Source of the DNA: Halomonas socia
GTDB lineage: Bacteria > Pseudomonadota > Gammaproteobacteria > Pseudomonadales > Halomonadaceae
Direction: 5' to 3'
Assembly (NCBI RefSeq): GCF_010977575.1
Contig: NZ_CP048812.1
Location: 2,170,001-2,234,000, forward strand
Length of the DNA stretch: 64,000 nucleotides
The translations under genes and the position numbers were made by a program. This document shows, in pieces, positions 49,683-57,655 of the stretch (the first letter of the stretch is position 1; each line of letters starts with the position of its first letter). Below the pieces are notes generated by a model. The model saw only the letters and a program-made list of their open reading frames with translations. It did no database searches and had not been told where the DNA came from.

Positions 49683-50024
49683 TCAGCGCGTCAACAACCC
49701 CTCGGCGAGCGCCTCGCCGAGGCGGTCAACGGCCAAGGCAAGCTTCTCGTCGATGACGTGGAGGTACTCCGTCCAGTCATCGACGTGGTGCAGCTCGGCC
49801 TTGCCGTCCGAAATGCCGCGCAGCACCACCAGCGGCACCTCGAAGCACATGCAGGCGCGGTAGCTCTCCATATCCACCATCTCGGCGGCGATGGCGTCAT
49901 AGGCCGCGCCCGAGACGATATTGGCCCCGGTGGAGAGCGTGGCCTCATGAATGCCGGGAATGCGCAGCGGCAGTGGGAGCGTCGCCGGCAGCTCGAGAAA
50001 GGGCGTGACGCCCTTGGAGAAGCC
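49683..50024 (-). pseudogene. mtnN 3' half (copy C), left arm of a 342-bp direct repeat
   Basis: 342 bp matching 52477-52818 with only two mismatches that I can find (50009 and 50018). It encodes the C-terminal half of the nucleosidase (from LELPATLPLPLRIPGIHEATL to the stop), without the N-terminal part. To the right the match ends abruptly at GAAGCC and unrelated sequence begins. Confidence 0.88.
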
Positions 50025-52476: not shown

Positions 52477-53148
52477 TCAGCGCGTCAACAACCCCTCGGC
52501 GAGCGCCTCGCCGAGGCGGTCAACGGCCAAGGCAAGCTTCTCGTCGATGACGTGGAGGTACTCCGTCCAGTCATCGACGTGGTGCAGCTCGGCCTTGCCG
52601 TCCGAAATGCCGCGCAGCACCACCAGCGGCACCTCGAAGCACATGCAGGCGCGGTAGCTCTCCATATCCACCATCTCGGCGGCGATGGCGTCATAGGCCG
52701 CGCCCGAGACGATATTGGCCCCGGTGGAGAGCGTGGCCTCATGAATGCCGGGAATGCGCAGCGGCAGTGGGAGCGTCGCCGGCAGCTCGAGAAAGGGCGT
52801 GATGCCCTTGGCGAAGCCCAGCGGGGTGGCGTCCATGTCGCGGTAGGCAACGGAAGTCGCCTGATAGACCTCGGTCTGTTCCAGCACCCGGCTGCCCGCC
52901 GAGCCCAGTGACACCACCAGATCCGGGAGGTGCTCACGCTGGGCCAGGGCAGCCAGCGCAGCGATAAGCTCCACTGCCGCCTCCACCGGGCCAACGCCGG
53001 TTATCAGCGGCGTTATACGCTGCTTGAGGTGCGGGCCGTACTCGGCCTCGGCTGCCATTACGAAGAGCACGCTGCGGCCGCCCAGTTGCGTCAGCTTGGG
53101 CGCGCCGGGCTCATCGGCTCGGGAGTCGGAGGGTGAGTCATGGTTCAT
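52477..53148 (-). CDS. mtnN: 5'-methylthioadenosine/S-adenosylhomocysteine nucleosidase family protein (copy B)
   Basis: A 223-residue paralogue of copy A with the same key regions: FVMAAEAEYGPHL, VVSLGSAGSRVL, VDMESYRACMCFEV and RGISDGKAELHH. I start at MNHDSPSDSRAD (53148). Its last 342 bp are repeated almost exactly at 49683-50024. Near the 3' end sits a perfect hairpin (stem CCTCGGCGAG, loop CGC, 52494-52516) also present in the other copies. Apparently intact. Confidence 0.87.
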   Translation of the reverse strand: MNHDSPSDSRADEPGAPKLTQLGGRSVLFVMAAEAEYGPHLKQRITPLITGVGPVEAAVELIAALAALAQREHLPDLVVSLGSAGSRVLEQTEVYQATSVAYRDMDATPLGFAKGITPFLELPATLPLPLRIPGIHEATLSTGANIVSGAAYDAIAAEMVDMESYRACMCFEVPLVVLRGISDGKAELHHVDDWTEYLHVIDEKLALAVDRLGEALAEGLLTR

Positions 53149-53419
53149 CGTTGTTGCCTTCCTAGCCGTGAGAGTTAATCGGATGACGGGCGCTCTGTCT
53201 TTCGTGTGCCTTGGTCGCGGCATAGAATGAGTAGTTGCCCCCGAGAGCATGGCGCCAATCAGGGAAACCCGCATCGCCTCACCGCCACTAAGAACACCTG
53301 CGGGCGTATCGGCTTCAAGGTGGCTCAGGCCATTGCGCTCCAGGCGCAGGCGCGAGTGGATGTCTCAGTCATCGCCTACGGCATCAAAATCCTCCGCTGC
53401 CGTACTGCCTGACTCGATG

Positions 53420-53612
53420 CGCGCTGTCGGAGCGCTGACAGTGCCCAGCGGTGGGCGACAAATGCCCGGCAAGGATGCGTGCCAGCAGCGCCTTGCCCAC
53501 ACCATTGCATCCCACCAGCCCTGTCGCACTGTTCTTGAAGGCTGGAGAAAAGCACTCTGCCGTCTGGCAGAACGAGGAACACGTCTTGAAGTGCGAGATG
53601 GGTATTCGTCAT
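53420..53612 (-). pseudogene. ABC-F type ATPase, N-terminal remnant
   Basis: From ATG 53612 the frame reads MTNTHLALQDVFLVLPDGRVLFSSL, the start of an ABC-F (Uup/EttA-like) ATPase. After a frameshift it continues TGLVGCNGVGKALLARILAGHLSPTAG, a Walker A in which the normal Ser/Thr after GK is Ala. The rest of the about 520-residue protein is missing. Confidence 0.75.
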
Positions 53613-53863: not shown

Positions 53864-53890
53864 TCAAGTTGTAGCACCCTCAGCCGATAA
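53864..53890 (+). promoter_or_regulatory. sigma-28 (FliA) promoter
   Basis: TCAAGTTG, 11 bp, GCCGATAA. The -10 element is an exact match to the sigma-28 consensus GCCGATAA, the spacing is the standard 11, and the -35 element matches TAAAGTTT at 6 of 8 positions. It lies 72 bp upstream of the Cache protein start codon. Confidence 0.8.
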
Positions 53891-53962
53891 ATAAATGATT
53901 GACAAGTAGCGATAGCTTGAGGCGTTACCCCCTCTTCTCCCTACCTGACAGGACACGTCATC

Positions 53963-55966
53963 ATGTTGCTTTCCTCTTTTGGAACGTCTCGCTCAACCGA
54001 TGATGTGCCGCCTCAGGTGAAAGCCTGCGGCGAGCAACTGCAACATCTCGATGGCTGGCTGGCCACGGTTACTCTGATCGGCAAGGTCTCCAGTCCCGAT
54101 AGAGCCAGCTCCCTGTTCGATAGCGTCAACACCACGCGTGACCGCTTTCGCTCGCTGCGCGAGAAACTCGTGTCCGCGCTGGTGGAAGCCCACGCCGGAG
54201 AACTCGAGATGACGCTCGGTTCACTGGCACAGGTGGCGGTGGATATCCTGATTCGCAACCTCTTCGAACGCACCGCTGACGTCGGCTTTCTCGCCACCGA
54301 CCCCACGTTGAGAGCCTTCCTCGCCGGCGGCGAGTCGACACCGAGCGACATGGCCCTGGCCGAACGCCTTGAAGAGTACGTTGCCAAGTATTCGGTCTAC
54401 GACAATATCCTGCTGCTCTCGCCCGAGGGGGACCCGCGTTGGGCGCTGCATGCCTGCCCGGGAGCGCAGAAAGACGCCGCGCTGATGGCAGATATCTCTC
54501 GCAGCAGGGCCGAGTATCTGGAGGTCTGTCGTCCCTCGCCGCTGTTGCCGACCCGGCCTGAGTCACACCTGTTCCTGGCACCGCTACTGGCCGATGACCA
54601 GCCCGGCAGCCTCCTCCTTGGCCTGCTGTGCCTGAGCTTCGACCTGCAGGATGAAATGGCACGTTTGTTCGCCCAGCTGTGCGATGCCCGGCATCATCTT
54701 GCGCTGCTGTCGCCGGATGGCCATGTCGTGGCCTCCAGTCTGGCAGCCCTGCCGGCTGGGATGGCACTGGGCAACCAGGGACATGAGCGAGTCGAGGCCC
54801 TCACCCTTCAGGGGCGGCGCTACCTTTGTCGTGCGGTGGGGGGCCACCCATATCAGGGCTATGCCGGGCTGGGGTGGCGCTGCATGGCGTTGCTAGAACA
54901 GAAGGAGGCCTTTGCCCGGGGCGATGCCGGAGTGACGACGCTCATGGCCATCGGGGGCGAGGTGCCAGCACGCCATCGTCAGGGCATACTGGCGGAGATC
55001 TGCGATGAGGCGGCGGACGTGGCGCAACGGCTCAGCCTAACTGTGCTCAATGGGCGAATCACCTCCGCGCAATGCCGGCTGGCCGAATTGACTCCGGTGC
55101 TGCAACAGGTCCGCGAGATCGGCTACCAGACGCGCCAGGTATTCGACGAGTCCATCGCCTCGCTGCAGAACGCCATGACCCAGGTCACTCTGGCGGACGC
55201 CGCGATGCGCTCGATCAGCATGATCGACATCATGGATCGCAACCTCTACGAGCGGGCCAATGACGTACGCTGGTGGGCGCTGGATCACCGCATCCAGCAC
55301 TGGTTGGAAGTGGGCGGTGCGCAAGCCAACCGGCACATCACCCCGGTGCTGCAGTACATCAACCGGCTCTACACCGTGTATACCAACCTGCTGGTGTTCG
55401 ATACGGAGGGCGTGATTCAGGCGGTGTCCTCGCCCGAATCGAGCGCACTGGTGGGGACCCGCCTGCCTGACGAACTGCCGCTGCAGGCCTGCCTGGCCCT
55501 CGGCTCGAGCCAGGCCTATGCGGTATCGGCCTTCGCGGCCACGCCGCTCTACGATGGCCAGGCCACCTACATCTACATGGCCAATATCACCTCCGCCGAC
55601 GATGGTCGGGTACTGGGTGGCATGGCAACGGTGTTCGACGCTGAGCCGGAGCTGCGCAAGATCGTTACCGATAACCTGCCCACGACGGCCGAGGGCGTCG
55701 CGAGCGCATTCGGCCTGCTGGTGCAGTCGGACTCGACCATCATCGCTTCAAGCGAGGCGTACTGGACGGCAGGGGAGCGGCTGGATGCCTACCTCCCGGT
55801 GTCATTGGCGGGCCTGGCGCCGGGGCTGCGCCGCATCCAATGGCTCGAGCATGGCGGCCGGACCTACCTGGTTGGCCTGGCCGCCTCCGCCGGCTATCGG
55901 GAGTACAAGGTCTCCGATGGCTATCGCAACGACGTCATAGCGCTTGCCTGCCTGCCCGTGGCGTGA
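53963..55966 (+). CDS. soluble tandem Cache-domain sensor protein without output domain
   Basis: A 667-residue protein with no signal peptide or membrane segment. Two related modules are visible: around residues 90-170 (NLFERTADVGFLATDPTLRAFL, YVAKYSVYDNILLLSPEG) and around 415-500 (MDRNLYERANDVRWWALD, YINRLYTVYTNLLVFDTEG), each followed by a Cache-like ligand domain. There is no MCP hairpin, kinase, GGDEF or CheW domain. It ends at SDGYRNDVIALACLPVA, where I would expect a CheW domain in longer relatives (recollection, unchecked). The sigma-28 promoter ties it to motility and chemotaxis. Confidence 0.75.
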   Translation: MLLSSFGTSRSTDDVPPQVKACGEQLQHLDGWLATVTLIGKVSSPDRASSLFDSVNTTRDRFRSLREKLVSALVEAHAGELEMTLGSLAQVAVDILIRNLFERTADVGFLATDPTLRAFLAGGESTPSDMALAERLEEYVAKYSVYDNILLLSPEGDPRWALHACPGAQKDAALMADISRSRAEYLEVCRPSPLLPTRPESHLFLAPLLADDQPGSLLLGLLCLSFDLQDEMARLFAQLCDARHHLALLSPDGHVVASSLAALPAGMALGNQGHERVEALTLQGRRYLCRAVGGHPYQGYAGLGWRCMALLEQKEAFARGDAGVTTLMAIGGEVPARHRQGILAEICDEAADVAQRLSLTVLNGRITSAQCRLAELTPVLQQVREIGYQTRQVFDESIASLQNAMTQVTLADAAMRSISMIDIMDRNLYERANDVRWWALDHRIQHWLEVGGAQANRHITPVLQYINRLYTVYTNLLVFDTEGVIQAVSSPESSALVGTRLPDELPLQACLALGSSQAYAVSAFAATPLYDGQATYIYMANITSADDGRVLGGMATVFDAEPELRKIVTDNLPTTAEGVASAFGLLVQSDSTIIASSEAYWTAGERLDAYLPVSLAGLAPGLRRIQWLEHGGRTYLVGLAASAGYREYKVSDGYRNDVIALACLPVA

Positions 55967-56123: not shown

Positions 56124-57317
56124 ATGCATGCTTCAATGAAGACGCCAACCTGGATCTGGCAGCAGCCCGACTGGCCCACCTTCCACTGGCGTGCCGCTGT
56201 GATTCAGCCTCGCCTTCAGGCAGTCTGGCGGTCTCTCGGTATGCTGTTGGGAAGGGTAGGTTCACTCCCCGGCGACGATGATCCGGCAGTAATGCTGGAT
56301 ACGCTGTTGCAGAACATCATCACCTCCTCGGCCATCGAGGGAGAGCGCCTGAATGCTGCCTCGGTACGCTCCTCCCTTGCACGACGCCTGGGTGTGGATG
56401 GTGTGGCGACGGCTGTTTCATCGCGTTCGGAAGGCTTGGCCGACATGATGATGGATGCCATTGGCTCGCCGGATACGGCGCTGACCCGCGAGCGGCTCTT
56501 CCAGTGGCATCGCTGGCTGTTCCCCGATGGCGAGGCATCGCTGGTCAGGCTGCGGGTAGGAGAGTGGCGGGGCGAGGAACCGATGCAGGTCGTCTCCGGC
56601 CGTCTCGACAAGCCCAAGGTGCATTTCGAAGCCCCGCCTCGCGCAGTGCTGGATGATGAAATGGCTGCCTTCCTGGCGTGGTTCGACGCGAGCCGCCACG
56701 ATCCGACCCTGGACCCTCTGCTGCGTGCCGGTATCGCCCACTTCTGGTTCGTCACTCTGCACCCCTTCGAGGATGGTAACGGCCGCCTGGCCCGCGCCAT
56801 TGCCGACCGAGCGTTGGCCCAGGCCGACCGGCAGAGCATTCGCCTCTATACCATGTCCGCCGCGATCCTGGCTGAGCGCCAGGACTACTACCAAGTGCTC
56901 GAAAACAGCCAGCGTGGCACGACGGATCTCAGCGACTGGCTGGCCTGGTTTCTCGATATCCTGCTGCAAACCTTGGAAGACGCTCTCGCCAGCATCGAGC
57001 GCACTCTGGCCAAGACCCGCTTCTGGCAGCGATTCGCCGAAGCCGGCTTGTTGCCGGAGCAGATCAAAGTGCTCAAGCGGTTGCTGGAGGGGGGAGAGCG
57101 CGGCTTCGAGGGCGGCATCAGCGCTGCTCAGTATCAGAAGGTCGCCAAGGTCAGCAAGGCCACCGCGACCCGCCATCTTTCCGATCTACTGGCCAAGGGC
57201 TGCCTGGAGAAACTGCCGGGGGGAGGGCGAAGCACGCGCTACCAAGTGGTGGGTTCCGGCCCGCCCCTGCCCCGTGAACGGACAAGGACCTTTAAACCTA
57301 CAGGGGAGAGACCATGA
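56124..57317 (+). CDS. Fic family AMPylase with N-terminal DUF4172 and C-terminal winged helix
   Basis: A 397-residue Fic protein that should transfer AMP from ATP to target hydroxyls. The N-terminal DUF4172 starts TPTWIWQQPDWPTFHW. The inhibitory helix motif SSAIEG (E72) precedes the core, and the catalytic HPFEDGNGR is at 213-221. The C-terminal wHTH (AAQYQKVAKVSKATATRHLSDLLAKGCLEKL) could bind the twin operator upstream. Motif and inhibitory Glu are complete, so it is a regulated, intact enzyme. It overlaps the following cupin gene. Confidence 0.92.
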   Translation: MHASMKTPTWIWQQPDWPTFHWRAAVIQPRLQAVWRSLGMLLGRVGSLPGDDDPAVMLDTLLQNIITSSAIEGERLNAASVRSSLARRLGVDGVATAVSSRSEGLADMMMDAIGSPDTALTRERLFQWHRWLFPDGEASLVRLRVGEWRGEEPMQVVSGRLDKPKVHFEAPPRAVLDDEMAAFLAWFDASRHDPTLDPLLRAGIAHFWFVTLHPFEDGNGRLARAIADRALAQADRQSIRLYTMSAAILAERQDYYQVLENSQRGTTDLSDWLAWFLDILLQTLEDALASIERTLAKTRFWQRFAEAGLLPEQIKVLKRLLEGGERGFEGGISAAQYQKVAKVSKATATRHLSDLLAKGCLEKLPGGGRSTRYQVVGSGPPLPRERTRTFKPTGERP

Positions 57318-57655
57318 TGGAGCGCTTGATTCCATCAGCTGCATTGAAGACGCTGCAGGAAAATAACGGGGTGCCCTTTGCCGAGGTATTCCGACACGGC
57401 TCGCTGCAGGTCGAGGTCTACAAGCCAGAAGGCGTTGATCGTCAATTGCCGCATACCCGAGACGAGGTGTACGTCGTCATCTCCGGCTCGGGCCATTTCG
57501 TGAACGGCGACACCCGACGGCCCTTCGAGGCCGGAGAGGTGCTGTTCGTGCCGGCGGGTGTCGATCACCGCTTCGAAGACTTCACCGATGACTTCGCCAC
57601 CTGGGTGTTCTTCTACGGCCCGGAAGGTGGCGAAGCCGCGTCGGATACTCCCTGA
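57314..57655 (+). CDS. cupin domain-containing protein
   Basis: A 113-residue single cupin: LPHTRDEVYVVISGSGHFVNGD gives the first metal motif and PAGVDHRFEDF the second. Its ATG overlaps the Fic stop codon, so the two are translated together. Function unknown; a link to Fic is suggested only by the coupling. Confidence 0.87.
   Translation: MMERLIPSAALKTLQENNGVPFAEVFRHGSLQVEVYKPEGVDRQLPHTRDEVYVVISGSGHFVNGDTRRPFEAGEVLFVPAGVDHRFEDFTDDFATWVFFYGPEGGEAASDTP

Follow-up and report, generated by a model that had tools for sequence, protein, structure and literature searches.

The 64,000-nt stretch of the Halomonas socia genome analysed here (the window) carries a gene for a soluble 667-residue protein that is preceded by a sigma-28 (FliA) promoter-like box and has no recognised output domain, which raises the question of whether, and by what contact, such a protein could serve chemotaxis. 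The reading favoured here, to which we give about an even chance, is that of a cytoplasmic, FliA-controlled sensor that would touch and thereby feed the one chemotaxis array of the cell, without a CheW domain of its own.

Anatomy and Predicted Fold of the Protein

The open reading frame (53963..55966, + strand) encodes 667 amino acids, for which no match was returned by Pfam, NCBIfam or the PDB sequences. dCache domains are usually extracytoplasmic and lie between membrane helices, and Cache domains in general are known mainly as the outside sensors of membrane receptors; this usual setting is thus absent here, as the 19-residue hydropathy windows of the protein reach a mean of 1.26 at most, and therefore include no obvious membrane span. 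The AlphaFold2 model, calculated from a 40-row alignment (mean pLDDT 84.6), runs in the order hairpin, dCache, hairpin, dCache. In this model, the first helical hairpin covers residues 17-110 (helices 17-43 and 49-110; 54011..54292, +) and is followed by dCache module 1 at residues 111-320 (54293..54922, +), a region also assigned by Foldseek and matched by PF02743 in several relatives; the second hairpin covers residues 342-438 (helices 342-371 and 376-438; 54986..55276, +) and is followed by dCache module 2 at residues 439-667 (55277..55963, +), which was placed from the alignment and the tail lengths. PF02743 was matched by 36 of the 40 aligned rows, the window protein itself not being among them. 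Foldseek with the model retrieved 121 PDB chains at E <= 0.001; kinases and chemoreceptors, with their extracellular Cache domains, make up most of the best 50, which also include some calcium-channel alpha-2/delta chains, and a dCache fold is accordingly predicted for both modules, which moreover repeat each other (hhalign E 2.6e-22). No ligand motif was identified in the 667 residues.

An earlier note on this DNA had described a soluble 667-residue protein with neither output nor membrane domain, and the reading frame, the hydropathy profile and the empty Pfam search bear this out. The Cache folds that it had suggested were likewise recovered by AlphaFold2 and Foldseek, and the duplication stands; its term "double-Cache", however, has to be widened, since each repeated module comprises a long helical hairpin followed by a complete dCache, and the protein therefore contains two dCaches.

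Sigma-28 Box Upstream of the Gene

The promoter-like box occupies 53864..53890 (+), with a -35 element TCAAGTTG (53864-53871), an 11-bp spacer and a -10 element GCCGATAA (53883-53890), and it matches TCAAGTTG-N11-GCCGATAA with 0 mismatches; 72 nt separate its end from the ATG at 53963, so that both the exact spacing and the distance given in the earlier note were reproduced. Across the window, three matches to the box were found at <=3 mismatches against 0.30 expected, a number reached in 2 of 100 shuffles, and the box at 53864-53890 is the only exact one. When the upstream region of 53963 was scored at 14 positions with 11-bp spacing, against a sigma-28 consensus, none of 5000 mononucleotide shuffles of the 350-bp region reached the observed score of 14, the top score being 12, obtained once.

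The box is identical at 16/16 positions in Halomonas salipaludis (locus L024), which is weak evidence because overall identity across the aligned upstream stretch is 92%. The full box was not found upstream of the other full-length relatives that were scanned, where the best scores were 8-11 of 14, including those of four other Halomonadaceae; five loci with <100 bp of upstream sequence each (L028, L030, L060, L065 and L107) are outside this count. Among the scanned full-length relatives, the full sigma-28 box is therefore confined to H. socia and H. salipaludis, so that flagellar control is indicated for these two species and not for the family as a whole.

The H. socia genome, a single 4.75-Mb contig, contains nine exact matches to the pattern TNAAG-N14-GCCGATAA, against a rough 0.6 expected by hand arithmetic (12 fixed bases, equal base use), and 62 matches at <=1 mismatch, where the reversed pattern has 15. 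Five of the eight other exact sites lie upstream of flagellar or chemotaxis genes (two of them MCP genes, the others fliD, motA and flagellin), while the remaining three are placed upstream of a GAF-domain gene, upstream of an ABC-transporter gene within the 3' end of the preceding ORF, and antisense at a motA-like start. Five of the 11 MCP genes have a site (<=1 mismatch) 1.1-1.5 kb upstream of the signalling domain when all 62 sites are considered, and a subset of 23 of the 62 gave the same outcome. Since the sites precede fliD, motA, flagellin and MCP genes, the motif is a marker of genes for flagella and chemotaxis in H. socia, and the 667-residue gene likely belongs to the FliA regulon of this organism, through which it would be transcribed in the cell. 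The placement in the flagellar and chemotaxis regulon proposed earlier thus gains from a box shared with these genes, but its reach is limited to the two species that have the full box. As a separate observation, two adjoining fliD-like genes are present in the H. socia genome (L078:64-2947), of 464 aa (Pfam FliD) and 461 aa (similar by eye), and the FliA box lies between them, upstream of the 464-aa one.

Full-Length Relatives and the CheW Domain

Matches to the protein were found in 23 of 250 family genomes, comprising six full-length proteins without CheW, one first half, 13 short proteins (346-456 aa) and three fragments. The search of the contig collection returned 52 loci, which are H. 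salipaludis, three short loci, five truncated or broken ones, and 43 whose ORFs span 848-930 aa. The C-terminus of all 33 scanned long relatives bears PF01584 CheW, as against none of the seven Halomonadaceae rows, and CheW is also present in L106; these 33 were aligned from 48 long non-Halomonas loci, and most of the remaining 15 were additional copies of the Methylobacter type, or were cut or broken. The window protein stops after dCache module 2, where the relatives run on into a linker and CheW.

These dCache-dCache-CheW proteins, present in Chromatiaceae, Methylococcaceae, Oxalobacteraceae, Campylobacterota, Geobacter and others, share both hairpin-dCache modules with the window protein over its whole length at about 30-39% identity, and they are likewise soluble by hydropathy (highest 19-residue mean <=1.96 in the 33 aligned). 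They differ in an extra stretch of about 165-215 residues that holds PF01584 CheW, which the window protein is without, and in the upstream region, where their best sigma-28 score is 11 of 14 (four of the loci have <100 bp upstream), whereas the window gene has the full box. These relatives resemble CheW proteins equipped with cytoplasmic sensors of their own. CheV is a CheW fused to a receiver; like the CheW-bearing relatives, it is soluble and links a further input to the array, but its input is a phosphorylated receiver and not a Cache domain, and the window protein differs again in having no CheW.

Wider sampling added three CheW-less proteins and one with CheW at class level (369 genomes), three CheW-less proteins and one split pair at order level (390 genomes), and five long proteins at phylum level (398 genomes). 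The C-terminal ends of the 12 CheW-less proteins in the tree fall within four residues of a common point. In a 50-row tree, drawn without L007, which is a half gene, and L153, in which the motif was not found, one branch separates these 12 from the 38 CheW-bearing proteins, with support of 100/99 and in 100% of 200 bootstrap trees; both large trees were flagged for long branches that meet and for uneven composition. As judged from these sequences, the CheW-less proteins make up a coherent subfamily across several gammaproteobacterial families. Rooting of the CheW split with short MCP-dCache proteins, in a tree of 27 family rows and 8 of the 16 short rows, gave a polytomy, and CheW may have been gained in one branch or lost in the other, as the unrooted tree fits both. 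No CheW remnant was detected in the searched flanks of five loci (the window, L024, L139, L141 and L144), where the positive control was found. The earlier suggestion that relatives carry a C-terminal CheW domain which has been lost here therefore holds for its first part in 33 of 33 long relatives, while for the loss itself the tree is unrooted and the searched flanks hold no remnant.

Two further loci were noted during this comparison. The apparent new fusion in G974, a 1336-codon open frame, was rejected, as the gene itself has an ORF of only 862 codons. At L171:1501-3514 (G1105), the modules occur as separate ORFs of 355 and 327 aa with a 32-bp overlap, reflecting either a frameshift or a true split.

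Short MCP-dCache Receptors and the Origin of the Hairpins

The short relatives (346-456 codons) have a PF00015 MCP tip in 16 of 16 cases and a C-terminal dCache in 15 of 16, so that they combine one module with an MCP tip, whereas the window protein has two modules and no MCP tip. They align with module 2 and its preceding helix (hhalign E 7.9e-33), mainly via the Cache part, and were found at loci L008-L020 and L073-L075 in Halomonadaceae, Azospirillum and Verrucomicrobia; by tblastn, short receptors also occur on plasmids of Methylobacterium, Burkholderia and others, some of them annotated as methyl-accepting chemotaxis protein. Fifteen of the 16 have no obvious hydrophobic span (19-residue mean <2.0), and the one in L011 lies in a probable over-long start. 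Sigma-28-like sites at 12 of 14 positions precede the short relatives L010 and L012. In the AlphaFold2 model of a short relative, the MCP segment is one straight helix (pLDDT about 70).

No Pfam match to the PF00015 signalling hairpin was obtained in the window protein. The idea that its hairpins are degenerate MCP tips, to which visual inspection and the register of the predicted turn lend some appeal, was set aside, as the family-wide profiles performed no better than controls and the MCP segment of the short relative was modelled as a single straight helix. Family-wide helix-only hairpin profiles gave P values of 0.059 and 0.28 against MCP tips, with 0.08 and 0.32 for the reversed controls. 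With the CheW-less rows, hairpin 1 gave P 0.35 and hairpin 2 gave P 0.0093 (score 18.3; reversed control P 0.027), and column shuffles of the latter had a mean of 10.7, sd 2.1 and a maximum of 18.7 (n = 40), at least 1 of the 40 being above the observed score. Descent of the hairpins from MCP tips is retained as no more than a possibility.

The hairpins also bear on a different role, in which the protein would be a signal-blocking decoy that damps the kinase, either by binding components of the array or by dimerising with soluble receptors. A protein whose modules bear hairpins and which has no output domain would suit this role, but it is without a recognisable MCP tip and the binding is purely inferred, and we consider such a decoy very unlikely.

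Surroundings of the Gene

Upstream of the box, a fragment of an ABC-type ATPase gene lies at 53194-53612 (-), as broken frames matching parts of residues 1-175 of a 541-aa ORF of H. salipaludis L024. Farther upstream, an exact 300-nt direct repeat (49683-49982 and 52477-52776, 2794 bp apart) covers the end of a nucleosidase-like ORF and is, as far as its sequence tells, a sign of recent rearrangement upstream of the 667-residue gene. The next gene downstream (56124-57317, +) encodes a Fic-family protein with DUF4172; it does not appear among the ORFs listed for L024 immediately 3' of the homologue, the next L024 ORF resembling, by eye, one opposite the cupin-like gene of the window at 57314-57655.

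Selection between the Two Halomonas Species

H. salipaludis is the nearest named relative, with 97% identity across the whole protein, and the comparison gave an overall dN/dS of 0.163 from 37 silent and 18 replacement changes; the gene is under purifying selection. Hairpins 1 and 2 show 0 amino-acid changes each, with four and six silent changes, respectively, and dCache module 2 has a dN/dS of 0.43 from nine silent and 11 replacement changes, these regional counts being small. This pattern is to be weighed against the view that the gene is a decaying accessory on its way to loss and the sigma-28 box a leftover or an accident. Such decay would agree with the patchy distribution (the full-length gene in 6 of 250 family genomes), with the upstream ABC-type gene that is already a fragment, and with the weaker constraint in dCache module 2; it is opposed by the low overall dN/dS, by a gene that is intact in two species with hairpins free of amino-acid change, and by an exact box that both species have and that no shuffle produced, and it appears quite improbable to us.

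Chemotaxis Context of the Carrier Genomes

CheW was found in 20 of 20 carrier genomes (which include one with a half gene and one with a split gene) and flagellin in 19 of 20, the flagellin miss being an 81%-complete genome; as background, a CheW-containing profile matches 227 of 369 class genomes, a rough figure that ignores kinship. Neighbouring che or motility genes are rare, being observed at 6 of 58 loci (seven query proteins), with an MCP in L037, L056 and L057 and only CheB-like matches in L035, L045 and L059. At one of these loci (L037:8631-10274, Methylococcaceae), the MCP gene lies directly 3' of the dCache-dCache-CheW gene on the same strand. The H. socia genome has two CheW-domain genes, by eye a CheW and one CheA, and 11 MCPs. 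The chemotaxis role put forward in the earlier note thus receives indirect support, from the CheW fusions in relatives and from the CheW and flagellin counts of the carriers.

Several observations count against an array reading: the full box is missing upstream of the other full-length relatives scanned, che-type neighbours are few, the full-length gene occurs in few family genomes, constraint in dCache module 2 is weaker, no ligand motif was identified, the hairpins match MCP tips no better than controls across the family, and CheW, the sole recognisable link to the array, is absent from the window protein. The absence of CheW might instead mark a cytoplasmic ligand-binding regulator within the flagellar regulon that works off the array, for example on c-di-GMP enzymes, the motor or metabolism. 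Such a regulator would be in line with a CheW-less subfamily kept intact in several gammaproteobacterial families, with the few che neighbours and with the other FliA-type site upstream of a GAF-domain gene; a domain layout close to that of the CheW fusions and of the MCP-tipped short receptors, together with CheW genes in all 20 carriers tested, speaks against it, and we regard it as somewhat unlikely.

Proposed Function and Comparison with Known Systems

In the favoured array-feeding reading, the gene product would be a cytoplasmic, FliA-controlled chemosensory protein built of two [helical hairpin + dCache] repeats, in which a cytoplasmic small molecule would bind one or both dCache domains, and binding would shift the attached helices and thereby bias the only CheA-CheW-receptor array of the cell, with a consequent effect on motility. 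In the long relatives, the fused CheW would take its place in the array and deliver the signal, while in the CheW-less gammaproteobacterial branch, the hairpins or the Cache surface would contact array proteins directly.

Parts of this arrangement have counterparts in published systems. In one study, RO22_23185 of Halomonas titanicae is described as a receptor whose Cache domain follows the signalling hairpin, and putative sigma-28 sites are reported upstream of genes in a Halomonas che cluster (PMC5907407). RO22_23185 resembles the window protein in its Halomonas origin, its C-terminal Cache and its lack of a periplasmic domain, and differs in having a signalling domain and, by a general statement of the paper, at least one transmembrane segment (PMC5907407). 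MtpA of Methylobacterium aquaticum, reported as a cytosolic receptor for formaldehyde taxis, is alike in its cytosolic, metabolism-linked sensing that feeds chemotaxis, whereas the only domain reported there is an MCP signalling domain (PMC10613068). Within a literature search of partial coverage, which took in few subscription papers, no account of a soluble dCache-CheW protein or of a CheW-less tandem dCache protein was recognised.

A broader proposal would be that an entire family of receptor-free cytoplasmic inputs to chemotaxis exists, in which tandem dCache domains act via a fused CheW or, in the gammaproteobacterial branch, via hairpins descended from a soluble MCP, so that the window protein, produced along with the flagella, would enter the array without a membrane anchor, a recognisable MCP tip or CheW; we hold this broader proposal to be rather unlikely. 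If the array-feeding reading is true, such a soluble protein, with its tandem dCache domains and flagellar promoter, would be a route from the inner chemical state of the cell to the chemotaxis kinase. Together with its CheW-fused relatives, which occur in several phyla, it would represent an internal input to chemotaxis that has been little described. The CheW and CheW-less subfamilies would then represent the same sensor with and without its plug, which would make this route testable.
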